From IMG/VR virus record IMGVR_UViG_3300035201_000186, positions 1-25,863 of that record: a stretch of DNA of 25,863 nucleotides; one strand, written 5' to 3'. The DNA is from a virus. Every line of letters begins with the position of its first letter. Position 1 is the stretch's first letter. This document shows positions 2,444 to 25,736 of this stretch, one piece after another. Below the pieces are notes generated by a model. It did not search any database, was not told the DNA's origin, and saw nothing but the letters and a program-made list of their open reading frames with translations. The position numbers and the translations under genes were made by a program.

Positions 2444-5400
2444 TTAGTAGTCACGAGTTGTCGTATCTATTATTTCAATTAGCTCTTCTAATATTTCAAT
2501 TAGCTCTTCTTCAAACATTTTTGCAATGTTGCTTTGTCCTTTTTTATGGAATCTTGGTCCAGCTATATTCAATGTTTGAATATTATTATCTTTCATCCAT
2601 TCTATTAGTTCATCTTTAGTGGGGTTAACTAAAAAAGGCTTGTTATGATCCATTGCAAAGCCAACTGTTCGCATACTTCCGCTTTTTAATCCCCATTTCT
2701 TTTCAATATCGCGAAGTTGTTGGGGATTGTCTTGGCTGGGATTAGGATTTGGTTTAGCTGTAGGATCGTAAATTAAAGTACCATCAGCGTCTATAACATT
2801 CTGCTCAGTGCGTGGCAACCAGCCAGTCTTCGTATGTTCTGTCAACCCAAACTCAGTTGCTACTTCAGGATCAGATCTTTTACCTCTAGTTTTTGGATCA
2901 TAAACCAGTTGTCCTTTTGGCATTAAACCACCAGTTTCTAAACCAACAGCCTTAGCCGCACGTAATCCTGCTTGATCTATACCCATTTGACCACCAGAAA
3001 TAATTTTTGTTAACCCGCCTGCTTCTTCCCATTCTTCTCTATTAGCAAGTCTTATCTGTCTATCAGTGCGTAATGGTTCTTTTGCCTTAACCTCAACAAT
3101 TTTCTTACCTGTAATTGGATCTCTTTCAGGTATTTTATTATCAACAATCTTTTCAGTAGTTGTTTTATTATCAACAATCTTTTCAGTTCTATTTTGTTGT
3201 CTTGCTTTCCACCGTTCATACTCTGCTCTGTTCTTCATAGGTGGACTCATTTTTCCTCTAGGAGATCCTTCACCTAACTCTCTTGCAGATTGATCTTCAA
3301 GTTTTTTCGCTTCGTTCTTATTTTTAATTTTTTTAGGTTTACCCTGCCTGAACCCTATGTCTACTTTCTTAGGATTAGGATTTAAAAACTTAGGATCTAT
3401 ATTAAGTCTTCTTAAAGCTAACGCATTAGCTTCTATCTCATTCGCGACTGATACTTTACCAGTGGATTTATGTGTGTGACCTAAAGTAATATGCGCTCTT
3501 TCATGCTCCCAAACCAATGCGGCAAGACCATCTTCATTACGTAATGGCTGTTTTGGTTGAAGAGGATCTGGTTCTCTTGTTGTGATACCTAATTCTCTAG
3601 ACTCTTTTGCTTTATTAGTGTTATGCTTTAGATGCAATTTTTGGAACTGTTCAAAGTCAGTTAAATCTTCAAGTTTTATAAGTAGTTTTCCGTCACGAAT
3701 ATTTTGAAGAAGGAAACTATAATCAACACCAAGTTCAGCCATAATTTCAGTTTGTGCTTTACTGCCAGTCATTACAGGCTTAGGCTCAGGTCCATCAGGG
3801 AAACTTGTTGATTTATCCCATTCGCTTCTAACATTATCAAAATCCATTTCAACAATCTGTCTACCATCAGTCATTCTTGCCTGCCCCGGAGGACGAATAA
3901 CCCCACCTGTCGGTCCCTCTTTAACAAGTTTCTTTGTGCCTGCTTCAACTGGTTGTGATGTGCCTCTGACATCCATTAAAATCTCAGGGAAAGTTTCAGC
4001 CCAAAAAGAATCTCCAACATCGTGTGTGATTACTCCACTTGTTTCATCTAATGCTGTTCTAAAAGAATCAAGCTGTTTGTATTTCTCTTTAATTATGGCT
4101 CTCATCACAGCTTTATTTTCACCACGAGCAGGTTCCAGATTCATCTTTCTTGCTCTGTCTCTTGCTTGTTTACCTGTCAATCTTTGGAAACCATTGACAT
4201 ACTTTCCTGTCTTATGCGCTTGGTAAGCTCCTTCTGCTGTTAGATACTCTCGTCCTCCGAACGTAAATGTTTCTTCATGGAAGTTGCTTAGTACTGTGTT
4301 TTGTCCTTTTCCGTAATGGACATTAGTGATCTTTGGCGTTACAAGTTCAACAGCATTTTGATTTAAAACAATAACCTGATCGCCACCTGCCGCTTGAAAG
4401 AACTTTCTGCCAAGGGCGTTCCTCCCGTCAGCTAATTCATCAACATTACGAATCTCAATAATGTCGTATTTTTTTGACAGTGCATCCCAACCACTTTTAG
4501 CAAGTGTGTCATTTGCTTCAGGATTTAACCAAAGATTCTGATTTTTTCCGAGTGAACGAGCTTCTCTAAGTGCCGCTTCATATGACTCGCCTGAATCTAT
4601 AACAAGTTTTCGCGCTGTTGGCTTTATAGTGTACTCCACCGATTCGAGAGCCACTTCATCAAAACCTGTGACTTGGAACATCCACTCTTGCTTCTCATAA
4701 TCATAGACAGGAACAGCCCAATCTGGAGCTTCGTCTCTAGATACAAATGTTGGCACCTCATCGTTAGGTATTGTAGTTGGCCCTCCCCATCTTGTGTCAT
4801 CTAATGAAAGGTATAAACGATTCCCTGCAAATTTTCCTTTACCCGTCCCAGCAGCAACATTCTTGCCACCAGTTCCATACAAGGGAGGGCGCGCCGGGTC
4901 ATGGCCAGTTGCAAGAATACCTGCTCTCCCCTCGGCAGTAGTGAAATGTTTAAGCGGTTTGTCGCCCACTTTTTCTGAACGACGAATCTCTTGTTCTATT
5001 CTAAGTTCTTGTTGCTCAGTAAGTGGTTGTACGGGTTGATCTGGAGCAGGTGGTAGATCGTCTACAAATCCTACTCCTTCTGGGTTTTCACCCTGATAAG
5101 CATAATCGTACATTGCATCTTCATACTCTTCAAAAGTCTGATAATCTCTAGGATTAGGTTCTCTTCCTGCTTTCCGATTAGCTTCTGCCCTTTCAGCCAT
5201 TTCACGGTTTAACCTGTTGCCCGGTTCCATTGCGTCGATGTCAGCTTCAACAGCGTCAAGGAATTCATCTTCATTTGCGAATTGGAATAGCTCCCCTTGC
5301 TGTGGCGCATACTCATCAGGTAAAACAAAATCTGTTCTCCGCATAGACAAACCATCAGCTTTAGCAATTAGATATTCAGGAATGTTTAAAGTACCAAATA

Positions 5401-6880
5401 ATGTATTCAACTCTTCTGTTGTGAAAGCATCTGTATTAGGTATAACATCATCAAATTTTTCTGCAAGTAAATCAGAAATTTCTTGATGCCCTTCTGGTCT
5501 TCCAGCACCACCCTCTATAGCATCTAGATGCGTTTCAGGTTTCCTAATCCAACCACTTTGATTTGGTCTACCAAAACCGTCAAACGGAAACCATTCAGTT
5601 TTACCAGAATTTTGACTTGTTGATCTGTACCAAGGTTCTAAAGTTCCATCTGCTTTTTGAACTAAAACAAAAGATCTTTCTGCACCTATAGTCCGGCCTG
5701 CAAGTTCAGCTACACTCTCAGTTAACTCTAGCTCTACTCTTGTTAAGCCCGGATGACTACTTGTTGGTGTCACAGTTATAGGATGCGTAGTTTTTATACC
5801 ATTACCTAAATCAATATCAGGAGCCATCTCATAGACAGGTTCACCATGTTTTGGCACTTGTGTTTTAGGAACTTCAGGTTCTATCTTTGGCCCAATATCT
5901 CCCTTATAATTCGGTGCCTCTATAGGTATAGTCCCTCCAGAGGTAGGCATGTCCTCAAACGGTATATCAGGTCGTGTAGTACCATACTGTCCCCCTTCTT
6001 TTATTACAGGCACACCCGCTTCGTCGGGAAGTGCAATAGGTCGTGCCTCCTCTACTAGGTCATCTCCTCTTGCAACAGGATCAGCTAAATCTTTTTTTAT
6101 AAAATCACGTTCTGATAGACTGTAAGCTAATTTATATTCCCCTTGTTTCACAGCGGATCTATGCAAAGCGGCTTTAATGCTAGCAGTTAACGGTCTAGCA
6201 CCGGCAACTGTAACAATGTCAAACAAATCAAGAGCCATCCATAAAGCGTCTTGCCAATCATCTACAGCAACCCACTCATCAAACCAATTATCATGCTTGT
6301 AGGGGTTAGGTGCATACCCCATCGCTCGTTGTTCCCACCAGTTGTCTAAATTTCCCCATGCTTTCCCTGCGTAATCAGAAAAATCTGACTCGCCGAAACC
6401 TAGATCCTCATAAATTTCACCCCACATACCTGTGCTTAAATCCCATGCCCCTTTACCTATATCAAAAGCCATATTCACTGGATTTAATGATGCCGCTTGC
6501 TTCAGAAGGCTCCCACCAAAAGGGTTGAAACCGTCAGTTAGTTGTTGTGTCGGCGCACCAGTTTGATCCCACGCCCACTGAACCCCATCATGCGCGCCGA
6601 CTTCTTCCATCAAAGCAGTAAGATGTTCATAAGATATGAAGTTACGTTCATCCAACCAATTATTCGCACCAGCTATTACCTGATCTTCTGGTGAAGCAAA
6701 TGGTCCTTCTACAGAATAATCAGCAGTTTTACCCGCTTGCAAAGCGTTAGAAAGCATATTACTTAAAAATTCTTTATGATACAGGAGATTATCTATAGTA
6801 GGTTGAAACTGAGTATCTCTCCATGATTCTGGATTTAGATCGTCTGTAACCTCATTCGCTGTGAGCGTCATGAGTTCCAT
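2444..6880 (-). CDS. Multidomain polyvalent-type protein: ART-like, NADAR, HExxH and molybdenum-carrier/SLOG domains
   Basis: Numbered from the ATG at 6880, the product has about 1478 residues. Residues 1-250 are Trp-rich and helical, then come Pro/Glu-rich linkers. Residues 640-849 look like an ADP-ribosyltransferase fold: HFTT at 645, RLYLS at 688-692, and a final strand QVIVLNQNAVEL. Residues 851-979 are a clear NADAR (YbiA-like) domain: LSNFHEETFTF, YLTAEGAYQAHK, GDSFWAE. An HERAH motif (1126-1130) with a following EIEANALAL resembles ImmA/IrrE-type metallopeptidases. Residues 1292-1457 match the putative molybdenum-carrier/SLOG family: SGGQMGIDQAGLRAA, PRTEQNV, DADGTLIY, LNIAGPR. The frame extends to a TTG at 6898, but GAGGAA before the ATG at 6880 favours the latter; an ATG at 6871 is also possible. 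Its neighbours are virion-interior genes, so packaging and ejection are inferred. Confidence 0.85.
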   Translation of the reverse strand: MELMTLTANEVTDDLNPESWRDTQFQPTIDNLLYHKEFLSNMLSNALQAGKTADYSVEGPFASPEDQVIAGANNWLDERNFISYEHLTALMEEVGAHDGVQWAWDQTGAPTQQLTDGFNPFGGSLLKQAASLNPVNMAFDIGKGAWDLSTGMWGEIYEDLGFGESDFSDYAGKAWGNLDNWWEQRAMGYAPNPYKHDNWFDEWVAVDDWQDALWMALDLFDIVTVAGARPLTASIKAALHRSAVKQGEYKLAYSLSERDFIKKDLADPVARGDDLVEEARPIALPDEAGVPVIKEGGQYGTTRPDIPFEDMPTSGGTIPIEAPNYKGDIGPKIEPEVPKTQVPKHGEPVYEMAPDIDLGNGIKTTHPITVTPTSSHPGLTRVELELTESVAELAGRTIGAERSFVLVQKADGTLEPWYRSTSQNSGKTEWFPFDGFGRPNQSGWIRKPETHLDAIEGGAGRPEGHQEISDLLAEKFDDVIPNTDAFTTEELNTLFGTLNIPEYLIAKADGLSMRRTDFVLPDEYAPQQGELFQFANEDEFLDAVEADIDAMEPGNRLNREMAERAEANRKAGREPNPRDYQTFEEYEDAMYDYAYQGENPEGVGFVDDLPPAPDQPVQPLTEQQELRIEQEIRRSEKVGDKPLKHFTTAEGRAGILATGHDPARPPLYGTGGKNVAAGTGKGKFAGNRLYLSLDDTRWGGPTTIPNDEVPTFVSRDEAPDWAVPVYDYEKQEWMFQVTGFDEVALESVEYTIKPTARKLVIDSGESYEAALREARSLGKNQNLWLNPEANDTLAKSGWDALSKKYDIIEIRNVDELADGRNALGRKFFQAAGGDQVIVLNQNAVELVTPKITNVHYGKGQNTVLSNFHEETFTFGGREYLTAEGAYQAHKTGKYVNGFQRLTGKQARDRARKMNLEPARGENKAVMRAIIKEKYKQLDSFRTALDETSGVITHDVGDSFWAETFPEILMDVRGTSQPVEAGTKKLVKEGPTGGVIRPPGQARMTDGRQIVEMDFDNVRSEWDKSTSFPDGPEPKPVMTGSKAQTEIMAELGVDYSFLLQNIRDGKLLIKLEDLTDFEQFQKLHLKHNTNKAKESRELGITTREPDPLQPKQPLRNEDGLAALVWEHERAHITLGHTHKSTGKVSVANEIEANALALRRLNIDPKFLNPNPKKVDIGFRQGKPKKIKNKNEAKKLEDQSARELGEGSPRGKMSPPMKNRAEYERWKARQQNRTEKIVDNKTTTEKIVDNKIPERDPITGKKIVEVKAKEPLRTDRQIRLANREEWEEAGGLTKIISGGQMGIDQAGLRAAKAVGLETGGLMPKGQLVYDPKTRGKRSDPEVATEFGLTEHTKTGWLPRTEQNVIDADGTLIYDPTAKPNPNPSQDNPQQLRDIEKKWGLKSGSMRTVGFAMDHNKPFLVNPTKDELIEWMKDNNIQTLNIAGPRFHKKGQSNIAKMFEEELIEILEELIEIIDTTTRDY
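2471..2510 (-). repeat. Two exact 19-bp direct repeats at the 3' end of the multidomain gene
   Basis: TATTTCAATTAGCTCTTCT occurs at 2471-2489 and 2492-2510, a 21-bp period equal to 7 codons. It encodes a doubled EELIEI(L/I) helix just after the SLOG domain, extending the C-terminal amphipathic helix. Confidence 0.85.
2510..3007 (-). other. Putative molybdenum-carrier (SLOG superfamily) domain
   Basis: Residues about 1292-1457. IISGGQMGIDQAGLRAAKAV and GGLMPKG form the glycine-rich nucleotide-binding start. LPRTEQNVIDADGTLIY and TLNIAGPRFHKKGQSNI are the other signature blocks of the PF12694-type family, a branch of the DprA/LOG (SLOG) Rossmann-like fold. SLOG domains generally bind nucleotides or nucleotide-derived ligands. 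Confidence 0.85.
3133..3187 (-). repeat. Two exact 25-bp direct repeats in the linker before the SLOG domain
   Basis: TTTTATTATCAACAATCTTT plus TCAGT occurs at 3133-3157 and again at 3163-3187, a 30-bp period equal to 10 codons. It encodes TEKIVDNK twice. It looks like a recent tandem duplication in a linker. Confidence 0.85.
3404..3541 (-). other. HExxH metallopeptidase-like segment
   Basis: Residues about 1114-1159. ALVWEHERAHITLGHTH has H1126-E1127-x-x-H1130. Downstream ANEIEANALALRRL supplies candidate Glu ligands at 1148 or 1150, the arrangement of ImmA/IrrE-like and other polyvalent metallopeptidases. The core is short, so a full active domain is uncertain. Confidence 0.5.
3944..4330 (-). 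other. NADAR (YbiA-like) domain
   Basis: Residues about 851-979. LSNFHEETFTFGGREYLTAE followed by GAYQAHKTGKY is the hallmark N-terminal motif of the NADAR family. ITHDVGDSFWAE and ILMDVRGTSQ match the C-terminal motif. The family acts on ADP-ribose-related N-glycosides; members have been reported to remove ADP-ribose from guanine bases in nucleic acid. Confidence 0.88.
4334..4963 (-). other. ADP-ribosyltransferase-like region
   Basis: Residues about 640-849 of the multidomain protein. The candidate ART hallmarks are KHFTTAEGRAGIL (motif I with H645), NRLYLSLDD (motif II aromatic-x-S) and GDQVIVLNQNAVEL (final strand, where other ARTs place E or Q). Spacing is longer than in compact toxins. 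If real, it may be active or a degenerate NAD+-binding fold. The assignment is by pattern only. Confidence 0.45.
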
Positions 6881-7838
6881 CTCCAAGTTCCTCAACAAAC
6901 CAATTACCTATACCGTTAATTAAACCGCGAGCATGTTTATAAAGCTGACCCCTAATATCACCATTGAGATCAAACGGTTTAGCAGATATAGGAGTTACAA
7001 TAAAAGGAAATTTAGAATCAATTTCTAAACCTGCTCTAGCCCACACAGCTTTAGGCACATTACGTATATATTCTGGTGGCAACAAAGCAACTAAACCCTT
7101 ACCAAACATTTCAATAATCTCTTCTGGCATGTCAAGATTAGCCATCGTTCTTCTAACAAGACTCATTTCGCCACGCCCGATAGTTCCGGGTCCAATAGGT
7201 ATTTCTGTACCGACAACACTACGCACAGCTTCTTCCATGCCGGGAGCAAATTTTCTTTTAGGTGTTGGCGCTACATTAGATTGTGCTGTTAATGAACTTG
7301 CGTAAGCTTGTCCAAATTCTCTGGCTTCATCTAAAAACAAACCGAAGTCTTGGTTGCCCCTACCGTAAAAAGTTGTTGGAGGGAAAGTATCCCAATCAAT
7401 TTCTTTATCGCTAACTATAAGAGAATTAGTTTCCCAGTCCCAGCTATCTAAACCACCACCAGCATGATCGTTGTTTCTTGCTATAGCTTTAGCCGCCAAA
7501 GCATTTATTTTAGGATCAAGTAGTTCTTGTTGCGCCGCTTCGTGAGAACTAACGATACCTAAATCAACAAGATCATGTTGGTACTTGTCATCTTTTTTTA
7601 TGTACTTAGGGCTAGTGGGATCAAAATGCATTGGATGTATTTGCCACAACCCAGTGTCACCACCCCTATTTGTTAATGTCTTAATGCCAGTTACTTCATC
7701 TGTCTCATAAGTAGGTTCAGCTATATCAGTTTCATCACCACCTGACTCACCCATAGCCATAGCAGTAAACTGTGCTATGTCTTCAGGATCAGACCAAATC
7801 GTAGAAGCTAACTTATAAATATCTTCTGGGCTATACAT
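6852..7838 (-). CDS. Lysozyme-like / lytic transglycosylase-type muralytic virion protein
   Basis: The 328-residue protein has an N-terminal lysozyme-like fold signature. FTAMAMGESGGDETD places a likely catalytic Glu at position 31, and RGGDTGLWQIHPMHF (residues 58-72) carries the GLWQI motif of soluble lytic transglycosylase and goose-lysozyme-like domains. LLDPKINALAAKAIARNN (107-123) is the usual following helix. It would cleave glycan strands of peptidoglycan. The second half (about 190-328) is an unassigned helical region. Location among virion genes rather than beside a holin suggests local wall degradation during DNA entry, although a role in lysis cannot be excluded. It overlaps the gene before it by 8 bases and the gene after it by about 29. 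Confidence 0.82.
   Translation of the reverse strand: MYSPEDIYKLASTIWSDPEDIAQFTAMAMGESGGDETDIAEPTYETDEVTGIKTLTNRGGDTGLWQIHPMHFDPTSPKYIKKDDKYQHDLVDLGIVSSHEAAQQELLDPKINALAAKAIARNNDHAGGGLDSWDWETNSLIVSDKEIDWDTFPPTTFYGRGNQDFGLFLDEAREFGQAYASSLTAQSNVAPTPKRKFAPGMEEAVRSVVGTEIPIGPGTIGRGEMSLVRRTMANLDMPEEIIEMFGKGLVALLPPEYIRNVPKAVWARAGLEIDSKFPFIVTPISAKPFDLNGDIRGQLYKHARGLINGIGNWFVEELGDGTHDAHSE
6888..6893 (-). promoter_or_regulatory. Ribosome-binding site deciding the start of the multidomain gene
   Basis: GAGGAA on the minus strand, 7 bases before the ATG at 6880 and inside the 3' end of the lysozyme-like gene. It supports this ATG over the in-frame TTG at 6898. A weaker GGAG precedes the alternative ATG at 6871. 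Confidence 0.55.
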
Positions 7839-17865: not shown

Positions 17866-18215
17866 TGTTGCGCCAATAGTTGCATAGCCGCTTGTGCTAT
17901 TAAAGGATCTCCTGTCGCATCAGCCCAACTTTGTAACAACTCCCCTGATTTCTGTTTAGGTGTAGGCGCTATCATTTGAGGCGAACCAATCCCTCCAGCA
18001 CCCGGAGCTAACAAAGGTGTTATCTCAGGTGTGAATGCTTGAGCGGCTTCTACAGGTAAAGGGGCTGGAGTAGCTGGCGCTTGATTAACAGGCGCAGGAA
18101 GATTATTTGTTTGAGGCAAAGGAATGGCTTCTTGTGCTTGTATGTTTTGTTGCACCTCACCATAAGCCGATCCAGCTTCTAACCCCGGAGATTGTGGTTT
18201 CTGTTTACGTGGCAT
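17862..18215 (-). CDS. Small Pro/Ala/Gln-rich protein between portal and giant protein
   Basis: The 117-residue protein begins with a basic tip (MPRKQKPQ), has SAYGEVQQNIQAQEAIPLPQ, then a long disordered-looking Pro/Ala segment (about residues 35-75, for example NQAPATPAPLPVEAAQAF). It ends in a short predicted helix, GELLQSWADATGDPLIAQAAMQLLAQ. Small proteins with a GxxYGE...Q start and Pro-rich body often follow the portal gene in actinobacterial-type phages. Their function is not established; an adaptor or scaffold role is possible. The stop overlaps the giant gene's start as ATGA and its own start overlaps the portal stop as TAATG, so translation is coupled on both sides. Confidence 0.7.
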   Translation of the reverse strand: MPRKQKPQSPGLEAGSAYGEVQQNIQAQEAIPLPQTNNLPAPVNQAPATPAPLPVEAAQAFTPEITPLLAPGAGGIGSPQMIAPTPKQKSGELLQSWADATGDPLIAQAAMQLLAQQ

Positions 18216-20002
18216 TACCCTGCCCTTAATGCACCAATAAGTTGTGCCGCTGACTCAGGGTTAAGTTCAGGTGGGGCTTGCGCTCCTTGTGGAGCCATGC
18301 CTTCTGGTCCAGCCGCTAACCCTAATGCTTGTTCTTCTGGACTTGGCGCTACAGCCGCTTGCTCTTCACGAATCTCAGTATCGGCTTTTTCGATCGCCTC
18401 AAAAATGTCGAGTCCCTTCCTGCGATGTTTCTCAATCTTAGAGACATACACCACTGGCAACTGTCCTGACAATGCTTGTTGCTGTATCGCCGCCATAACT
18501 GCTTCTTCCAGTTGTTCTTCATCTACCCTACGCCCTTCAGCTTCAGCATCCTCAATGAACGGATGCTTAGTACGGAAAGTACGTAAGCTTATACCTTTCA
18601 TCGAAAGTAACTGACCTAATTGTATCGTAGTGCCTTGAACATCTGCGCCGGGAATTGAATACGAAACGACATTATCGTTTGTTTCAAAATGCTCATTTGG
18701 AGTGAACTCTACTTGTCCAAAATCTCCAGCATAGCCAGTGAACATAGAGAACTGTTTAGCCCCAAAGTAACCTTTATAAGTAGCGAACAGGCATTCGTTT
18801 AGATGAGGAAGATGAGCCTCCATAATCTCTTGCATCTCTTGGATGCGCGGATCAAGCGCCGCGCCCATAAGGGAATCGATTCCTCTACCGGTACGGAGCG
18901 CTCCGTAAGTTTCTCCACCAATCTGGGGTACGGTTCCTGTTGAAATACGAGCATTTCTTTCCAATCTGTCGATGGCAATGTTTGTGCTCGGATCAGGAGT
19001 TGATCTTAATTCGCCAATAGCTTCAGCATCAAGGAGTACATTTACTTCCCCTTCACGACCGTCTTTCCATTCACCTCCGACGATCATGGGTACCTGACCC
19101 GATCGTCCTATTATATACCTATCAGGAAAGATTGCTTTTTCTTGTGCAAGTATTTCCAATGCCATCATTTTTGACATAAGATCCACAATTCCTACAACAT
19201 TAGAAACAGAGGAAGCTATCTTGTCCAACGAAACACGACCCGGAGTTATAACACAAGGCATACCAGATTTGTTAGGCGCACGAGATAGTTCTATTTGCGT
19301 ACTATGATATGGGTAGGTTTGATTATAATGATTATAACGTGGTCCCATTATTCCAATAACAATGTGTTCTTCATCCACCCATTCGCACACATCCCACAAT
19401 TCTTGACGGGCGTTCTTATCTGAAGCTACAGGCCCACCATTCTCTTGCCTAGCGGCAGGATAATGAGCGCGTAGCCAGTCGCCTGACTTACCGTAAATGA
19501 AACCACAGTTACGTGGAACTTCTACATCTTCATATGCTTTAGGTTCTGGATACACACCAAGAGGGTCACGAACATCAATACGTGGTACCCCCTTGTCAAA
19601 ATCAGGAGTAACTACTAGACATGATGTGGCGTATCCAGCTAGATGACGGTATGCCCTACGCATCTTTAGTTTATACTTTGATGAATACCACGTAGCGGCA
19701 AGTGCGCGTCTACGAATATCAGCATACTCACGGGAACGAACACCTCGTTCTTTCGATTGATCTATAGCAGGGCATCCAATGAAAGGCATAACTGATGAGG
19801 CTCGTTGAGCTACAGCATCAATGTTCTCTGCTATAAGAGCAGGAGTTAATGGAGGTAAAACAGGTTCATTCTCCATTGAAGGAAGAGGAATTACATATTC
19901 TCCGTTATATCTTTCTTTAACTTCAAGCATTCTTTCCAATAAAGGACTTTGTATATCCTGCCTTTGTCTTATAATTCCTACTATTTCATCAAAGGTATAC
20001 AT
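18215..20002 (-). CDS. Portal protein
   Basis: The 595-residue product forms the dodecameric ring through which DNA is packaged and ejected. Support is its position directly after the terminase (TAATG overlap), its size, and its internal layout. An alpha-helical N-terminal segment (IRQRQDIQSPLLERMLEVKERYNGEY) precedes a region with IDVRDPLGVYPEPK (about residues 142-155), a typical portal wing motif followed by GDWLRAHYPAA-like helices. Next come the segments SNVVGIVDLMSKMMALEILA and ALDPRIQEMQEIMEAHLPHL, compatible with stem and crown helices. The C-terminal 60 residues are rich in Pro, Ala, Gln and Glu (GMAPQGAQAPPELNPE), probably a flexible tail. The sequence looks like the head-tail connector type portals of actinobacterial and marine phages rather than lambda gpB, but I cannot assign a family with certainty. 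Confidence 0.87.
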   Translation of the reverse strand: MYTFDEIVGIIRQRQDIQSPLLERMLEVKERYNGEYVIPLPSMENEPVLPPLTPALIAENIDAVAQRASSVMPFIGCPAIDQSKERGVRSREYADIRRRALAATWYSSKYKLKMRRAYRHLAGYATSCLVVTPDFDKGVPRIDVRDPLGVYPEPKAYEDVEVPRNCGFIYGKSGDWLRAHYPAARQENGGPVASDKNARQELWDVCEWVDEEHIVIGIMGPRYNHYNQTYPYHSTQIELSRAPNKSGMPCVITPGRVSLDKIASSVSNVVGIVDLMSKMMALEILAQEKAIFPDRYIIGRSGQVPMIVGGEWKDGREGEVNVLLDAEAIGELRSTPDPSTNIAIDRLERNARISTGTVPQIGGETYGALRTGRGIDSLMGAALDPRIQEMQEIMEAHLPHLNECLFATYKGYFGAKQFSMFTGYAGDFGQVEFTPNEHFETNDNVVSYSIPGADVQGTTIQLGQLLSMKGISLRTFRTKHPFIEDAEAEGRRVDEEQLEEAVMAAIQQQALSGQLPVVYVSKIEKHRRKGLDIFEAIEKADTEIREEQAAVAPSPEEQALGLAAGPEGMAPQGAQAPPELNPESAAQLIGALRAG

Positions 20003-21720
20003 TAAAAAACCCTACTATTAGACACACTTGTCTTCCAAGGTAGTCCTTTAAAGCTGAATTGTGAAGAGTCAACACTATATGATTGTTTCCTTTGCCGCCA
20101 GAGTATCCAAATGAACCATAATGCCATAACTTGATCCTGTCTTAGTTTAGTACCACGTTTTAATGGCCGCCATGCTTTCAACTGTCTTATTAGTTCATCA
20201 GCTTGATGGCGTGTGGACGGATCATCTGCATAAGGAATATCAATTTCACCACGCATAAACGATAAAGCCATAGAAGGAACTCCAATAGTTTCATCATACT
20301 TATTCACACCAGTTAAATGTTCCCTCACACGAAACCCATATCGCTCGGTCATCTCTACAAGACGCTCATCACGAGATAAACCTTTCTGGAATACCATCGC
20401 TTCAATAACAACATCCGATACAGTCGCACCATTCTGCCCGCATCTAAGTATCGCTTCTTCAACAATACCAAGTATCTGCTCATTACGGGTAAGCCCCACA
20501 TCTTCTCTAACGAAAAGAATCTTTAACTTATCCTCATGTGGAGTAGCCGCTATAACACAGTTGTTAGAACCCAACGCAGGATCCAATCCAATGTAAACAG
20601 TGCAGTCCTTTGGTGGATGATGATTCACCGAACGTAAAGGATTCAAACATTTCTGTATAGATTCCTCATCGAACGTAGCCTCAGCAGAAGAACTTGGCTG
20701 TTGCATATAGTTACGTGACCATGCCTCTTCACCAACCTTACGACGAATCCTGTCAAGCGCATCCATAGAAAACATTTCAGGCCACAACGGTTCAGGTTCA
20801 CCATCATCGTTAGTAATAATCGCAGGGAATCTAATCACAGAAAGAATATCTGGATCTATCTCATTCATTACACGTTCATAAAAATCGCCTTCACCCACAC
20901 GAGTACCATTAATACTCGTTCGACCATTCTCACCCGGACGGGTTAACCAGTCCTGACGGAAAATCTCGAACATCTGTTCGGTAAGGTTCAACGAAACACG
21001 AGATTGAATATCATCAATATGCAAATGATCGGTACGTGTACCAGCGATCTTCGATCTCCAACCTAAAGAAACCATCGAATAGTCACGCTCATCGTGACTA
21101 GCCTTCTTAAATACGTTAAAATAATCAGCACCCCACGATTGAGCAGTTTTACGACCACTCTGATTTTGAGGTACGAAAGGCCCATATTTAGCTACATATT
21201 TAGGGAAAGGTCCATGAGGTTCCATCCTAGAACGTATACGCCCAAGAATTTTGCGAGCCATGTCTTGTCCCTCAGATCCGACGGTGATCCTGAATTCGGG
21301 GTTGGTCGCCAGTTTGTAGCAGAAGTAGTCCTCGGCAAGCGTTGTTTTGCCGTGTTCTGGAGGCCAAAGGATGAGGGTGATGTTTCCGGGTGGTGTGTTT
21401 TCATACGCTTCGATGGCTTTGATATGGAACCAAGGGGACATGTGGCCGAAATAGTGACTTCTGAAACTTTGAAACGTGCCGTCCCACTTATCCACACCGC
21501 CGTCAGCGAGAGCTTTCGCCCTGATGGAGTCAGCTTTCTCAGCGAAGTCAGGTATCCTTTGTCTCCACTTATCATAAGCGGATCGTGTGACACCAGCGAT
21601 AGCACACGCCTTAGAGATAGTTCCATGCTCCGCGAGTCCTTCAAGGAACAATTCACGAGTCTTCTGTCCCCTGACTTTGCTGACGTTGCCGCCATGTTGT
21701 TCATGCGTAGCGTTAGTCAT
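20002..21720 (-). CDS. terL: Terminase large subunit (ATPase-nuclease) with N-terminal helix-turn-helix
   Basis: This is the packaging motor that translocates and cuts phage DNA at the portal. Numbering from the ATG at 21720 (572 residues), residues about 23-67 form a helix-turn-helix-like segment (GTISKACAIAGVTRSAYDKW) of the kind normally seen in terminase small subunits. Walker A is PPEHGKTT (120-127) and Walker B is LHIDD (233-237). The nuclease domain has the acidic residues expected of the RNase H-like fold: D380 (IGLDPA), E440 (VVIEAM) and D529 (RQDQVMALW). The frame can be extended to a TTG at 21741, but the ATG is preceded by AAGGGGGG and leaves a clean gap from the previous gene. 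Its stop overlaps the portal start as TAATG. A stretch covering Walker A has unusual base composition. Confidence 0.93.
   Translation of the reverse strand: MTNATHEQHGGNVSKVRGQKTRELFLEGLAEHGTISKACAIAGVTRSAYDKWRQRIPDFAEKADSIRAKALADGGVDKWDGTFQSFRSHYFGHMSPWFHIKAIEAYENTPPGNITLILWPPEHGKTTLAEDYFCYKLATNPEFRITVGSEGQDMARKILGRIRSRMEPHGPFPKYVAKYGPFVPQNQSGRKTAQSWGADYFNVFKKASHDERDYSMVSLGWRSKIAGTRTDHLHIDDIQSRVSLNLTEQMFEIFRQDWLTRPGENGRTSINGTRVGEGDFYERVMNEIDPDILSVIRFPAIITNDDGEPEPLWPEMFSMDALDRIRRKVGEEAWSRNYMQQPSSSAEATFDEESIQKCLNPLRSVNHHPPKDCTVYIGLDPALGSNNCVIAATPHEDKLKILFVREDVGLTRNEQILGIVEEAILRCGQNGATVSDVVIEAMVFQKGLSRDERLVEMTERYGFRVREHLTGVNKYDETIGVPSMALSFMRGEIDIPYADDPSTRHQADELIRQLKAWRPLKRGTKLRQDQVMALWFIWILWRQRKQSYSVDSSQFSFKGLPWKTSVSNSRVF
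21285..21480. other. Patch of altered base composition inside the terminase gene
   Basis: By hand count, plus-strand lines 21301-21360 and 21361-21420 hold 20 G to 12 C and 21 G to 9 C, with about 50-53% GC. Line 20881-20940 in the same gene holds 8 G to 22 C, and line 21481-21540 holds 13 G to 22 C. GC skew is therefore reversed for about 200 bp over the Walker A region, and GC content is raised from about 21240 to 21720 (47-58%) compared with about 37% at 20821-20880. The reading frame is intact. Confidence 0.6.
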
Positions 21721-21722
21721 GG

Positions 21723-21730
21723 CCCCCCTT
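21723..21730 (-). promoter_or_regulatory. Ribosome-binding site deciding the terminase start
   Basis: AAGGGGGG on the minus strand just before the ATG at 21720. It supports that ATG over the in-frame TTG at 21741, which would overlap the preceding gene. Confidence 0.6.
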
Positions 21731-21733
21731 GGA

Positions 21734-22021
21734 TCAATCAAAGACAGAGTGGGCTACCTCTAAGTCTAAAATTTCCGTAGCGATAACCCCTTCTATCCCT
21801 TGGAATCTTACTGTATGTACACCTGCTTCAGCTAAAGTTAGATCAACATAATATACACCTGTTGAACTTTTTGTTGCCGAAGGAGTGGCATCTGTTCCAC
21901 CTGAAGGTTTACGCCAAGTAACTGTTACACCTGCCGCATCTCCAGTGGGGTCAGCGAGAGTTCCATCAGTTGTAAAGTTCGCTGTTACACGTACTGAGTC
22001 TCCGTTGTCATATACTGCCAT
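21734..22021 (-). CDS. Small beta-sandwich (Ig-like) phage structural protein
   Basis: The 95-residue protein reads YDNGDSVRVTANFTTDGTLADP near the N-terminus, VTVTWRKPSGG in the middle, and TGVYYVDLTLAEAGVHTVRF toward the end. The order 'Y-D-x-G-D-x-V-R-x-x-A-x-F...G-x-x-x-D-P...V-x-V-x-x-P-x-G...G-x-Y-x-x-D-x-x-L-x-x-x-G-x-x-x-x-R' is a recurrent small phage protein pattern that looks like a single Ig-type beta-sandwich. Such proteins are usually found among virion genes, often as a head-fibre, decoration or appendage-adaptor domain. A good AGGAG lies 6 bases before the ATG. Thirteen bases separate it from the terminase ATG. No catalytic residues are evident, and the exact role is unknown. 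Confidence 0.6.
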   Translation of the reverse strand: MAVYDNGDSVRVTANFTTDGTLADPTGDAAGVTVTWRKPSGGTDATPSATKSSTGVYYVDLTLAEAGVHTVRFQGIEGVIATEILDLEVAHSVFD

Positions 22022-22029
22022 TGAATCTC

Positions 22030-22659
22030 CTACCCGACACTTGCTTCTAGAGTAACATCATGGTACGTGGAAGGCGAGAGTGTTACGTTAGGTTTAGGGA
22101 ATTTTAACCGAATCACAGTAGTCACACTAGCTGTCGAAGTTAAAGCCGCCGCTATCAAAGCTTCCTCAATGATAAGAGTAGCTGTCGATAACACCGCCGA
22201 AAGAGAAGCCCCTATAGGCTGATCTCTGACAATCGCCGCTGAAACAGTCGCCGTTGCTGTGAGAGCAGACGCTATAGAAGCCTCTTCTATGATAACTGTT
22301 ACTTCTGATGCTGTCGCGCTTAAAGCAGAAGCAATGAAGTTGTTCATCTGCAAAGTTGTGCTTACAGAAGCAGAACTTGAAATAGCTGAAGCTATAGAAG
22401 CTTCCTCTACGATAACGGCTGTTATCGAAGCTGAAGAAGAAACCGCCGCGCTTAAAGCACTCGTCCAGTTAATAGATGCAGTTACAGAAGCGGAACTTGA
22501 AATCGCCGATGTAATAGGATGATTGTCGCCACCTCTATAAAGTTTTAATGTACGGCGGTAATCCCATCCGTTTCTATACGCATTACCAGCAGGATTACCG
22601 TCATAATTGTAAGAAGGTAACCTGTAGTCTGTGCTGGCTTGACGATAATCAATAGCCAT
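22030..22659 (-). CDS. Phage structural protein of seven 20-residue repeats
   Basis: The 209-residue product has an N-terminal segment rich in Tyr, Asp and Arg (residues 1-48, including DYRQASTDYRLPSYNYDG), then seven consecutive 20-residue units (residues 49-188), then a short C-terminal tail. Each unit follows roughly 'I-x-x-A-L/I-S-x-x-A-S-V-x-x-x-I' plus a variable linker such as VEEAS or RDQP. Alternating small and hydrophobic residues with a constant period suggest a beta-solenoid or other elongated trimeric shaft. I have seen similar SA-L-SA-x-A-x-V-x-A repeats in phage appendage proteins, but I cannot name a family. Three bases separate it from the chaperone-like gene. It is most likely a fibre, spike or decoration protein. 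Confidence 0.65.
   Translation of the reverse strand: MAIDYRQASTDYRLPSYNYDGNPAGNAYRNGWDYRRTLKLYRGGDNHPITSAISSSASVTASINWTSALSAAVSSSASITAVIVEEASIASAISSSASVSTTLQMNNFIASALSATASEVTVIIEEASIASALTATATVSAAIVRDQPIGASLSAVLSTATLIIEEALIAAALTSTASVTTVIRLKFPKPNVTLSPSTYHDVTLEASVG
22096..22515 (-). repeat. Seven in-frame 60-bp coding repeats (20 aa each)
   Basis: Seven units of exactly 20 codons with no insertions or deletions, beginning with ITSAISSSASVTASI, LSAAVSSSASITAVI, IASAISSSASVSTTL, IASALSATASEVTVI, IASALTATATVSAAI, IGASLSAVLSTATLI and IAAALTSTASVTTVI. Units 1-3 are most alike at their SSSAS core. Units 2, 4 and 6 share an EEA linker, hinting at growth by duplication of a two-unit block. DNA copies have drifted but keep recognisable segments such as GAAGCTTCCTC and AGCTGAAGCTATAG variants on the plus strand. 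Confidence 0.85.
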
Positions 22660-22662
22660 TAT

Positions 22663-22965
22663 TTACTCTGGTTGTGTCGGCCAATCACCGAACTCTGAAA
22701 CTTTACTTGCTGTTGAAGGGAAGTCCCGAAGTTCTTGACGATATGTAGCCCATTCAGCTTTCTTCTCATCAGTAAGAGGAGAGTCAGCTATTTGAGTCCA
22801 ATCAGATTGAATTAACAAACTGTTTCGTTCATGTCTGATAGGTGTGATATCAACATCGTGAGCGGCTCTCGTCTCTTCTAACTCTTTTACCTCGTCATCA
22901 GACATAGGCACAGTTATCCATTCACCGTTTTCGTCTTGAATCATTTTGTTCATTACTTCTGCCAT
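22663..22965 (-). CDS. Phage tail assembly chaperone-like protein
   Basis: The 100-residue acidic protein has the sequence pattern of the phage tail assembly chaperone family: RNSLLIQSDWTQIADSPL at about residues 47-64, then EWATYRQELRDFP at about 71-83, and a C-terminal DWPTQPE. The conserved core 'R-x-x-L-L-x-x-S/T-D-W-T-Q...Y-R-Q-x-L-R-D' and the terminal WP are the features used. In other phages such proteins sit next to fibre genes and assist folding or attachment of fibres, which fits the location just after three adhesin-like genes. A near-perfect Shine-Dalgarno (AGGAGG) lies 6 bases before the ATG at 22965, the strongest in the window, suggesting high translation. It may act in the infected cell rather than in the virion. 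Confidence 0.8.
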   Translation of the reverse strand: MAEVMNKMIQDENGEWITVPMSDDEVKELEETRAAHDVDITPIRHERNSLLIQSDWTQIADSPLTDEKKAEWATYRQELRDFPSTASKVSEFGDWPTQPE

Positions 22966-22979: not shown

Positions 22980-23582
22980 CTAAGAGTATTTTCTTCCGTA
23001 AACCGTAACGTGAGAAGGTGATCTGAAACTTCCCGAACCAGTATAAAACCTTGCGTAGTCAAGTTTAGAATTTCTGTAACTCCAACTAGCACCCGGACCG
23101 CCTGTTCCCATAGTTACTTCACGATAATAATTACTATTCTGGTAATTAGGTGGATTGCCTGCCATCCAACTAAGATGCACACATCTGCCATTCTCGGCAT
23201 TAACATCTGCCATTTCCATAACAACAACACCCATACCGCCACTATTTGCGTTACCGTAAGGATCTTGTACAGCGTGCATTTTATCTATAATTGAAATACC
23301 CGGATTATTATTTGCATGACTTGACGCCGTAGGTTGCCAATGCGCTCCATAGAATCGGGCAGAGCAATTATAGTTTTGATTCCAACCACCACTATTATGA
23401 TAAGTCTGAAGGTATAAGGTTGTACCATCGGTATCATTACCGCTTACCCATAGTTTAGCGACAACAACCACATCTTTGTAAGCAGACAAAGCGTTACTAC
23501 CATCGTTCAAAGTGAACTGCATGTACGCAGAAGTTCCACTACCTATATAAGTTTGTGTTATATATTCTAAATCAGCGGCCAT
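22980..23582 (-). CDS. Beta-rich receptor-binding-like tail appendage protein
   Basis: This 200-residue product is third in the adhesin-like series. It opens with MAADLEYITQTYIGSGTSAY, continues with beta-strand-like stretches (AYKDVVVVAKLWVSG at about residues 34-48, GMGVVVMEMADVN at about 118-130) and ends SHVTVYGRKYS, the same 'V-x-V-Y-G' style close as its neighbours. It has few Lys or Glu residues and many Asn, Ser, Tyr and Gly. Two bases separate its ATG from the stop of the preceding gene; the ribosome-binding site is weak (GGA), so translation may be coupled. Membership in one paralogous set with the two upstream genes rests on size, composition and termini, not on alignment. Confidence 0.6.
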   Translation of the reverse strand: MAADLEYITQTYIGSGTSAYMQFTLNDGSNALSAYKDVVVVAKLWVSGNDTDGTTLYLQTYHNSGGWNQNYNCSARFYGAHWQPTASSHANNNPGISIIDKMHAVQDPYGNANSGGMGVVVMEMADVNAENGRCVHLSWMAGNPPNYQNSNYYREVTMGTGGPGASWSYRNSKLDYARFYTGSGSFRSPSHVTVYGRKYS

Positions 23583-23584
23583 AA

Positions 23585-24139
23585 TTAAAATCCATGCAAA
23601 CTGAAGGTTGTACCTTCTTTAAACTTATTGCTACTCCAATGGTAACAATAGATTCGGTTTATATGAGCGGCATCATAATACTTATGATAAAAAAAAGTTT
23701 TACCATAATATGATCCAGCATATCCAGACTGACTCCACCCTAGTATGTGTTTACCACCACCAGTATTATTATCATTTTTATTACTATTAGTATGAAGCGG
23801 CACAGCATCCCTGTAATAAGGGAAGTAAATTTTGTGAAATGACCTCGACGCATTATTAGAAGCGTTATGTATTAGCGCATTATTAGCATTTGCGTTATAC
23901 CCGCCGCCGTTATAATACATATAAGCGGTAGCACCACCAGAATTGCTTAGTATCGCAGTTGTATCATATTTGTTGGATTCATCAGAAGTACCATTAAGAC
24001 GAATATTCCAACCGCTACCATTACCACTATCAATCAGACAATCTGCTATTAACAGCAAATGAGTATACGTTGTAGGAATGCTCTGAAAATCAAATGTGGT
24101 TACTGCGCTTGACGCTCGAACTGCTGAAATTAATTCCAT
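23585..24139 (-). CDS. Beta-rich receptor-binding-like tail appendage protein
   Basis: This 184-residue protein starts MELISAVRASSAVTTFDF and continues with TTYTHLLLIADCL (about residues 23-35) and WNIRLNG (about 44-50). The order 'tF-x-x-I-P-x-x-Y-t-h-L-x-L...N-G' is a widespread signature of small phage appendage domains with a beta-sandwich fold. It ends FKEGTTFSLHGF, matching the usual 'F-x-x-G-S/T-x-F-x-L-x-G' terminus. The middle is exceptionally rich in Asn, Tyr, Gly and His (for example KNDNNTGGGKHILGW), compatible with a solvent-exposed binding tip. An AGGA sequence lies 8 bases before the ATG, and one base separates it from the preceding gene. It is probably a virion adhesin; the ligand is unknown. 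Confidence 0.65.
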   Translation of the reverse strand: MELISAVRASSAVTTFDFQSIPTTYTHLLLIADCLIDSGNGSGWNIRLNGTSDESNKYDTTAILSNSGGATAYMYYNGGGYNANANNALIHNASNNASRSFHKIYFPYYRDAVPLHTNSNKNDNNTGGGKHILGWSQSGYAGSYYGKTFFYHKYYDAAHINRIYCYHWSSNKFKEGTTFSLHGF

Positions 24140-24140
24140 A

Positions 24141-24743
24141 TTAGTATCCTAAACTCCCACCATAAACTTCAACTTTGCTATGAGCCGCAAAGTATTGACC
24201 GCCATGACTATTACCACAACCGAATTGAAGAGTGTTAGGGGATTGAGGTATAGCAGTTGAACCTAAGATCATGTAAGGCGAATTGTTACTTAAACTTGCT
24301 TCGTAAAAAGCAGTCGGATTCTCAGTGTACGACCCTACTCCATGTTGTGTCGTAAGTCCTGTTACCCAAAAATCAATAAGCCCATAAGTATAAGTATCGT
24401 CATTATTATCTGCTACACAGTAATCAATTTCACCGTAGTTTTGGGTTTGCCCCGGCTGGTTACCACCCCAACTACTACCAGCCCATTCATAGTCTTTAGT
24501 GTAAGTGTAAGAACCAGTATTGCCATCGACACGCCATGTCAATTTATTACCACTTGAAGAAGCCTGCCTTGCTTTAATACGAAACCAAAGCATGTCATAC
24601 GTATTATACGGAGCAGATTCCATATTGAATGAAATATAATATGTGTTAGTTGAAATAGCGGTTTCTGCTATACCTTCCCAAAGAGGTTTAACTCCACCAG
24701 CACTAGCCGCAGATGACCCTACAAGAGCAAGAATCTGGGACAT
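24141..24743 (-). CDS. Beta-rich receptor-binding-like tail appendage protein
   Basis: The 200-residue protein is rich in Tyr, Ser, Asn, Gly and Trp, with no long helices or charged runs. Its centre (about residues 50-90) reads like a beta-sandwich: WFRIKARQASSSGNKLTWRV and then alternating polar and aromatic residues. It closes with HSKVEVYGGSLGY, resembling the 'x-hydrophobic-Y-G' ending seen in many distal phage adhesins. It is the first of three consecutive genes of similar size and composition, suggesting a set of small receptor-binding proteins or duplicated tip domains. The start is the ATG at 24743, directly after the TAA of the fibre gene. No enzymatic motif is visible. The function is inferred from composition and neighbours. 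Confidence 0.6.
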   Translation of the reverse strand: MSQILALVGSSAASAGGVKPLWEGIAETAISTNTYYISFNMESAPYNTYDMLWFRIKARQASSSGNKLTWRVDGNTGSYTYTKDYEWAGSSWGGNQPGQTQNYGEIDYCVADNNDDTYTYGLIDFWVTGLTTQHGVGSYTENPTAFYEASLSNNSPYMILGSTAIPQSPNTLQFGCGNSHGGQYFAAHSKVEVYGGSLGY

Positions 24744-25736
24744 TTAAGCCTCTAAAGATCCGATAAGAACCCAAGTAGTAGAAGCAGTTTTTATAGCTGT
24801 AGCACTTCCATATTGTCCTGCAATCTTTTTATTACCATCTTTAGATGAAAGCGTGTCAGAAGTAATAGCTATAGTCAAAGTTCCGCTACCCAACCGAACG
24901 AAAGTCAAAGTTGTACCCACAGGGTAAGCAACCGATCCGTTCGCTGGAATAGTCAAAGTGTAATTAGAACCACTGTTCATCGTGATGCACTTCCCTGCAT
25001 CAGCTAAAACCATCGTGTAGTTACCTGTTTTGTTTTCCACACCTAACGGTGCTTCCAAACCACCTGAAACAGTGAGCTTGTCAGTAATAGTTACATTGCC
25101 GTCAGCTACCGCCAACGCTGTTTGACCATCAGTTCCAGTTATCGTTAAAGATTCCGCTGAGGAATCCCAAACCATCGAATCACCAGCAGTATCAGAGTAG
25201 AAAGTAACATCCCCACCCGAACCGTCACTACCAATAGTTAAACCTGTTAAAGCACCAACAGAAGTAATCGCTGATTGAGCGGCTCCAGTAACAGTCGCCG
25301 CTGTACCTGAACAGTTACCAGTAACATTACCAGTAAGCGCCCCAGCGAACCCTGTCGCTGTTAAAACCCCAGTACCAGCATTATATGTGGCACCACCATC
25401 AGTCTTAGGGGCAAGATCGCCTGTAGCGGATTCAAACAAAGCCACCGAACAAGAAGTGTCAGTAGTGTCAGCTACCGTAATAGCTGTAGGCGTTTGAGCA
25501 GGAATAGCTTCCCACGCTGTAGACCCATCAGCTTGCCTAGTCATCACATGACCATCAGAAGCACCCGAAGCCGCAGACGTACCTATACCAAGTTTTGTCT
25601 CCAAAGCAATAAGCGCACCAGAGTGATTCGTGTGAACCACATCATGCTCATAACCCGAAGCATCAAGATCAGTTGTTGAACCCGGAGAAGGCTGTTGAGT
25701 AGCAGTGTCTAAAGAAGTTGGATAATTAGTAGCCAT
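24744..25736 (-). CDS. Tail fibre / appendage protein with Gly-Thr-rich shaft
   Basis: The 330-residue product is low in charge and rich in Thr, Gly, Ala and Ser, typical of trimeric phage fibres. The N-terminal region has HTNHSGALIALETKLGIG (about residues 35-52), a motif recurrent near the N-terminus of phage fibre and baseplate-wedge proteins. Residues 115-225 form a shaft with GALTGNVTGNCSGTAATVTG and DGNVTITDKLTVSGG, turns characteristic of beta-helical or beta-prism fibres. Residues 238-290 (MVLADAGKCITM, TIPANGSVAYPVGTTL) match a common small C-terminal fibre domain. It probably forms a virion appendage taking part in adsorption. The TAA stop directly abuts the ATG of the next gene (TAAATG), indicating coupled translation. 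The receptor and exact position in the virion are unknown. Confidence 0.8.
   Translation of the reverse strand: MATNYPTSLDTATQQPSPGSTTDLDASGYEHDVVHTNHSGALIALETKLGIGTSAASGASDGHVMTRQADGSTAWEAIPAQTPTAITVADTTDTSCSVALFESATGDLAPKTDGGATYNAGTGVLTATGFAGALTGNVTGNCSGTAATVTGAAQSAITSVGALTGLTIGSDGSGGDVTFYSDTAGDSMVWDSSAESLTITGTDGQTALAVADGNVTITDKLTVSGGLEAPLGVENKTGNYTMVLADAGKCITMNSGSNYTLTIPANGSVAYPVGTTLTFVRLGSGTLTIAITSDTLSSKDGNKKIAGQYGSATAIKTASTTWVLIGSLEA

Follow-up and report, generated by a model that had tools for sequence, protein, structure and literature searches.

REP, a 209-residue protein of a virus fragment, is built around seven contiguous units of exactly 20 residues, and the number of these units differs widely between the homologous proteins of related viruses. 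On balance, REP is best regarded as a short tail-fibre or spike component of the virion, in which the number of units would set the length of a shaft. The DNA analyzed (hereafter, the window), 25,863 bases in length, is an entire virus record of IMG/VR. It is probably a fragment of a tailed-phage genome, and all of its main genes are located on the minus strand.

Repeat array of REP

The REP gene and its parts are arranged in the window as follows.

22030..22659, minus strand: REP coding sequence (209 aa), an open reading frame with a homologous slot protein in IMG/VR relatives
22516..22659, minus strand: N-terminal Tyr/Arg-rich head (aa 1-48), with DYRQ..DYR..YNYDG.. short repeats
22456..22515, minus strand: 20-aa unit 1
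22396..22455, minus strand: 20-aa unit 2, with EEA linker
22336..22395, minus strand: 20-aa unit 3
22276..22335, minus strand: 20-aa unit 4, with EEA linker
22216..22275, minus strand: 20-aa unit 5
22156..22215, minus strand: 20-aa unit 6, with EEA linker
22096..22155, minus strand: 20-aa unit 7
22033..22095, minus strand: C-terminal tail, P-x-P-x-V-T-L...D-V-T-L

The first-pass annotation had described seven 20-residue repeats without gaps, with an EEA linker in every second unit. This description is accurate: the units occupy residues 49-188 (window 22515-22096), and the linker is present in units 2, 4 and 6. The core proposed for the unit, A-S/T-A-S-V-x-x-x-I, is imperfect in units 4 and 6. 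The self-similarity of the protein at an offset of 20 residues gives a mean BLOSUM62 score of 1.43, whereas the best score of the shuffled protein (n = 5000, offsets 8-44) averages 0.41 and never exceeds 0.90. The score is higher at an offset of 40 (2.07) than at an offset of 20, because every second unit has the EEA linker.

The units are 20-55% identical to one another in residues and 33-62% identical in DNA, and Tandem Repeats Finder detects no array at 22096-22515. These results indicate that the duplications are old, not recent tandem duplications. They also rule out a DNA-level tandem repeat with slippage in the window. When the window and three close relatives are compared in all six pairs, the dN/dS ratio of the whole gene is 0.27-0.34. 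The gene is real, constrained and under purifying selection.

REP matches no Pfam or PHROG family at E <= 1. PHROG family phrog_23524, which is of unknown function, is matched by eight of 39 aligned repeat proteins (best E 1.1e-5), and the Pfam matches of single relatives to LonB and MerB (best E 0.0042) are taken as chance. Viral fibres made of repeats are a familiar class, but no earlier description of this 20-residue unit was found in the literature searched at the level of abstracts.

Gene neighbourhood of REP

The genes around REP are listed below in the order in which they follow one another on the minus strand, with REP itself between the chaperone gene and the 95-aa gene.

24744..25736, minus strand: putative tail fibre, 330 aa (phrog_8780 minor tail protein, E 1.8e-8; phrog_21510, E 1.5e-12)
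24141..24743, minus strand: 200-aa gene of the variable fibre cluster
23585..24139, minus strand: 184-aa gene of the variable fibre cluster
22980..23582, minus strand: 200-aa gene of the variable fibre cluster, with a homologue in few relatives and no family match
22663..22965, minus strand: tail(-fibre) assembly chaperone, directly upstream of REP (PF16778, E 1.7e-19; several PHROG tail-fibre-assembly families)
21734..22021, minus strand: small gene, 95 aa, directly downstream of REP, weakly Ig-like (Big_1, PF02369, E 0.0012, under the Pfam cut-off), kept between REP and TerL
20002..21741, minus strand: terminase large subunit, TerL (phrog_38, E 1.6e-48)
18215..20002, minus strand: portal protein (phrog_104, E 5.4e-7; tblastn matches to annotated Streptomyces phage portals)

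The REP gene is thus located in a tail-fibre cluster that contains an assembly chaperone gene, and this location makes its identity as a fibre or spike plausible. The order of REP, the small gene, TerL and portal is preserved in relatives, while the gene set ahead of REP varies; the fibre cluster is the hypervariable part of the genome. TerL of the relatives is 80-99% identical to that of the window (L002-L104, without contig-end fragments), but the repeat protein only 31-92%, as would be expected of host-facing genes. In the relatives L008 and L037, the fibre cluster around the REP homologue also includes a gene of the Pfam family Podophage GP4 fiber I protein gp80 (PF23140; E 2.5e-43 and 1.2e-41). 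It is located just upstream of the homologue of the 330-aa gene, and the window stops before that position. The Gp80-family protein is a different protein from the repeat protein, a neighbour rather than a homologue; that of L008 matches PDB entry 8jou in sequence (E 3.3e-14).

Alternatively, REP might be a head fibre, collar or other virion decoration, with its TerL side marking a head-gene position and the Ig-like neighbour as its partner. The Ig-like gene and TerL do lie directly downstream of REP in nearly all relatives, and phrog_32822 ("virion structural protein, head and packaging") weakly matches the repeat protein of L133 (E 0.08). However, REP clusters with fibre genes and a fibre chaperone, and in the cultured phages described below the repeat gene lies within a cluster of the Gp80 fibre family. 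We consider a head decoration rather improbable.

Cultured phages share only ~21-28% identity with the window in TerL and portal, and the window therefore represents a phage group without a close cultured member in the collection searched. A scan of bacterial genomes with TerL gave 22 pattern matches, none of which was confirmed.

Three further minus-strand genes of the window were noted. The 1484-aa protein encoded at 2444-6898 has a SLOG domain of the cpYpsA type (E 1.6e-21), and its match to NADAR (E 0.0014) stays under the threshold. The block to which it belongs probably encodes internal or ejected virion proteins, and this protein is possibly an ejected nucleotide-acting counter-defence protein. 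The 328-aa protein at 6852-7838, which adjoins the large proteins, is weakly lysozyme-like (SLT_3, E 6.2e-5, under the Pfam cut-off), and the 2533-aa protein at 10264-17865 matches nothing in Pfam or PHROGs at E <= 0.01. In relatives, the tail-fibre cluster contains 2OG-Fe(II) oxygenases (E 6.3e-14, 1e-9 and 1.6e-11). A tryptophan halogenase (E 8.6e-32) is encoded in the cluster of L024. These oxygenase and halogenase loci are L045 3076-3723 and 3708-4373, L008 4666-5328 and L024 4848-5975.

Variation of the unit number among relatives

IMG/VR was scanned with the repeat protein (28 loci) and with TerL (80 loci), and the set was later enlarged. The copy-number table contains 92 TerL rows after removal of eight duplicate-contig loci. 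Eighteen of these rows lack a complete slot protein and are uncounted, and arrays truncated by a contig end were excluded. The unit number of each of the remaining 74 slot proteins is defined as array length divided by 20. The commonest number is 6 (35 proteins), followed by 0 and 7 (12 each), 8 (nine), 14 (four), and 11 and 18 (one each). Two additional types with 9-10 units were found in IMG/VR. The repeat number thus varies, as the first-pass annotation had proposed, and nearly always in whole 20-residue steps. The unit spacing is 20 almost throughout; single steps of 21, 23 or 26 are present in some proteins, and there are longer skips at irregular units.

Parsimony on the TerL tree gives at least 24 changes of unit number, a figure that carries the uncertainty of the unit parser, which yields one to three fewer units than length/20 in irregular arrays. 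The parser and length/20 give 5 and 6 units respectively for some 177-aa proteins, 6 and 7 for L060 and L065, 7 and 8 for L015 and L024, 5 and 7 for L072 and L073, 4 and 7 for L089, and 6 and 8 for L102. Both counting rules agree on the 7, 8, 11, 14 and 18 units of the regular arrays.

The number also varies between close relatives. When TerL is 97-99% identical to that of the window, the slot protein contains 0 (L035), 7 (L002), 8 (L008 and L010), 14 (L030 and L033) or 18 (L037) units. An invariant repeat number across divergent relatives, which the first-pass annotation had named as evidence against its proposal, is not observed. The close relatives L033 (14 units) and L037 (18 units) differ by one clean four-unit block. 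This block corresponds to L037 units 8-11. Within it, units 9 and 10 share 78% and 76% of their DNA sequence with L037 units 13 and 14, suggesting that the block was duplicated or exchanged long ago. Six units of the window protein align one-to-one to units 3-8 of the 8-unit protein of L010 with 85-100% identity; at the start, the window protein has a longer Tyr/Arg-rich head and one unit fewer.

Twelve of the 74 slot proteins contain no recognisable array, and the shaft is therefore dispensable in some relatives, although the repeat-free proteins of the L052 type may hold one degenerate unit. The commonest number, 6 units, is rather stable, and this stability counts against a reading in which the length is tuned.

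Anatomy of the unit and of the head and tail

The composition of 312 distinct units shows strictly hydrophobic residues at positions 1, 5, 11 and 15 (97, 88, 79 and 96%), Gly as the commonest residue at position 7 (37%), and charged residues gathered at positions 17 and 18 (61 and 67%). This composition, together with a predicted model of low confidence, suggests that the unit is an amphipathic two-strand element followed by an acidic linker. When seven 7-unit proteins are compared, identity is 0.85 between units that share a position, in contrast to 0.37 for units at other positions. The array positions are specialised, each with its own identity, and are not homogenised. Covariation between unit positions is confounded by lineage.

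The alternation of even and odd units noticed in the window protein holds for its subgroup of 7-8-unit proteins, but is not family-wide. A 40-residue super-repeat is weak in four related 7-8-unit proteins (p 0.03-0.055), and the p value is 0.06-1 in the remaining 11 of the 15 proteins tested.

Head residues Y5, R6, Y12, R13, Y19 and G21 are invariant in the 39 aligned proteins. The C-terminal tail consists of short repeats of ~10 residues, VTLxxSLxxD, and the slot protein of L015 (971-1651) contains one more tail repeat copy than that of L024. A slot protein without a recognisable array is present at 13 loci, including L063, which is cut by a contig end. The tail pattern is common to the repeat-free proteins of L035, L048, L049, L052, L054, L059, L067 and L101, in which it reads P-x-P-x-V..V-T-L-x-V, and the Tyr motifs of the head are more numerous in several repeat-free proteins. 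Because these repeat-free proteins keep a similar tail, and several have extra Tyr motifs in the head, the array is an optional module in the middle of the protein, flanked by head and tail.

The same unit in cultured phages

The 20-residue unit is also present in MEP402 gp62, MEP401 gp59 and Venkman gp51, and in proteins of two Manatee Spring phages (ct2t2046 and ctXG6705). These proteins were found through their Gp80-family neighbour and by tblastn, in a search that was not exhaustive. When the window protein and a 10-unit protein (L136) were used as tblastn queries against cultured phages, no match was obtained, possibly because the low-complexity filter masks such sequences. Scored with the unit profile of the window family, the five proteins give 6.2 to 15.6, versus maxima of -4.4 to -12.4 for 1000 shuffles. 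CRP-4 gp54 scores -16.3, under its shuffle maximum of -15.0, so that five of the six named phage proteins pass. Profile-profile comparison (hhalign) gives a probability of 95.7 and a pairwise E of 1e-8; the shuffle test was added because composition bias makes this comparison one to be read with caution. The dominant period of all five proteins is 20 or 40.

The repeat genes of the cultured phages are located in fibre clusters that carry a gene of the "GP4 fiber I" (Gp80) family, which adjoins the repeat gene in MEP401, MEP402 and ct2t2046 and lies some genes off in the others. MEP401 and MEP402 (Zobellviridae) and Venkman are phages of OM43/Methylophilales. The five repeat proteins resemble those of the window family in period and unit profile, but differ in the N-terminal head, which is of the FRVLENGDSRITE type or different, and in the C-terminal tail, which consists of W-rich short repeats. 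Proteins of the MEP type are encoded at 17 further IMG/VR loci. Each distinct protein of this type has a best period of 20 or 40, although the signal is weak in those of 320 residues, and their lengths of 270-320 residues indicate less copy-number change than in the window family. The tail of MEP401 and MEP402 is reported to be obscure and short (PMC10580990).

The repeat proteins of the cultured phages are annotated as hypothetical, as tail protein (MEP401 gp59), as "HERC6" or as "serine-rich adhesin". The annotations "putative E3 ubiquitin-protein ligase HERC6" (L142 14723-15439, Venkman gp51) and "serine-rich adhesin" (L143 17776-18606) are probably misannotations.

Predicted fold and comparison with known repeat-built fibres

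AlphaFold2 monomer models are beta-rich both for the window protein (39 alignment rows; mean pLDDT 47.1), in which each unit has two strands, and for the 14-unit protein of L033 (mean pLDDT 41.8). Both models are of low confidence, with no residue at pLDDT >= 70, and do not establish the single structural layer for each repeat that the first-pass annotation had suggested. At this confidence, Foldseek finds nothing at E <= 0.001 in BFVD or PDB, where the best matches have E 0.012 and E 0.97, respectively. An uncharacterised phage protein in BFVD, A0A6J5M255, is matched with TM 0.55, probability 1.00, 25% identity and E 0.043, but the model is too poor for this match to be trusted. Sequence searches of PDB with the repeat protein give no significant match either. 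Neither a receptor-binding nor an enzymatic domain is visible in the repeat protein, of which the C-terminus is short.

The low pLDDT values of both models and the abundance of small residues would suit a flexible tether or a mucin-like coat, rich in Ser/Thr/Ala and mostly disordered, the length of which is loosely constrained. Such a tether is quite improbable, given that the 20-residue spacing is strict across divergent relatives, the hydrophobic positions 1 and 15 are near-invariant, and the units are conserved position by position.

Another alternative is a monomeric beta-solenoid spike, in which a single chain would wind into a beta-helix with one coil for each 20-residue unit. The product would be a short, stiff rod, growing by ~5 Å per unit, and not an oligomeric fibre. 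Coils of 20 residues are common in beta-solenoids, which speaks for this fold. The weak PDB matches of the low-confidence model include many beta-solenoids (LpxD, pectate lyases, ice-binding proteins and FHA/HxuA domains; E 2-9), and the odd spacings of 21, 23 and 26 also count in its favour. However, none of the structural matches is significant, although a weak match does not exclude a fold, and AlphaFold2 is usually confident on true solenoids, whereas the pLDDT is only 47 and 42 here. A solenoid is unlikely, if somewhat less so than the tether.

The fold favoured here for the fibre or spike is an oligomeric one. The triple beta-spiral of adenovirus fibre and reovirus sigma1 is a viral attachment shaft made of repeats (PMC3150272). 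It resembles the candidate shaft of REP in its short repeats, alternating hydrophobic residues and two strands per unit. The consensus given there has 15 positions (a-o) with Gly or Pro at turn position j, in contrast to the 20 residues of the unit (PMC3150272). In the best registers, positions c, e, g, k and m are hydrophobic at a fraction of 0.81-0.83 when Ala is included and 0.54-0.59 when it is not. Membership in this class is rejected, as only 0.00-0.01 of the 312 distinct units have Gly or Pro at position j when either of the two best registers is used.

The delta fibre of Orsay virus, a beta-bracelet, likewise has a shaft made of repeats. Its authors consider repeat number the likely source of the length differences among three nematode viruses, which provides a published parallel for a repeat number that sets length (PMC7565637). 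This fibre differs in being pentameric, with much shorter repeats of five-residue strands and three-residue loops, and in belonging to an animal virus. No sequence relation to it is claimed.

Proposed role of the array

The candidate appendage would consist of the Tyr/Arg-rich N-terminal head, a shaft of 20-residue units and the short C-terminal tail, and would presumably be carried by the virion. Each unit, predicted to be two strands joined by a Ser/Gly/Thr turn and then an acidic/Ala linker, would serve as a fixed structural step of the shaft. Recombination within the hypervariable fibre cluster would add, remove or swap whole units or unit blocks. The unit number would then set the length of the shaft, and the length may govern the reach or presentation of the appendage, and thereby possibly host recognition.

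A broader proposal, which is possible but doubtful, is that the unit represents an unnamed oligomeric beta fold without a Gly/Pro turn. It would act as a ruler in many uncultured and cultured tailed phages, with the reach of the spike adjusted as whole units are gained, lost and exchanged while the identity of each position is kept.

If the fibre or spike reading is correct, the relatives would provide a natural length series (6, 7, 8, ~10, 11, 14 and 18 units) of one viral shaft. Because this series occurs in relatives with TerL up to 99% identical, the relation of spike length to host surface could be tested directly. A function would also be assigned to a protein that recurs in cultured phages of ocean methylotrophs and has been called hypothetical or misnamed, for example as "HERC6 ubiquitin ligase".
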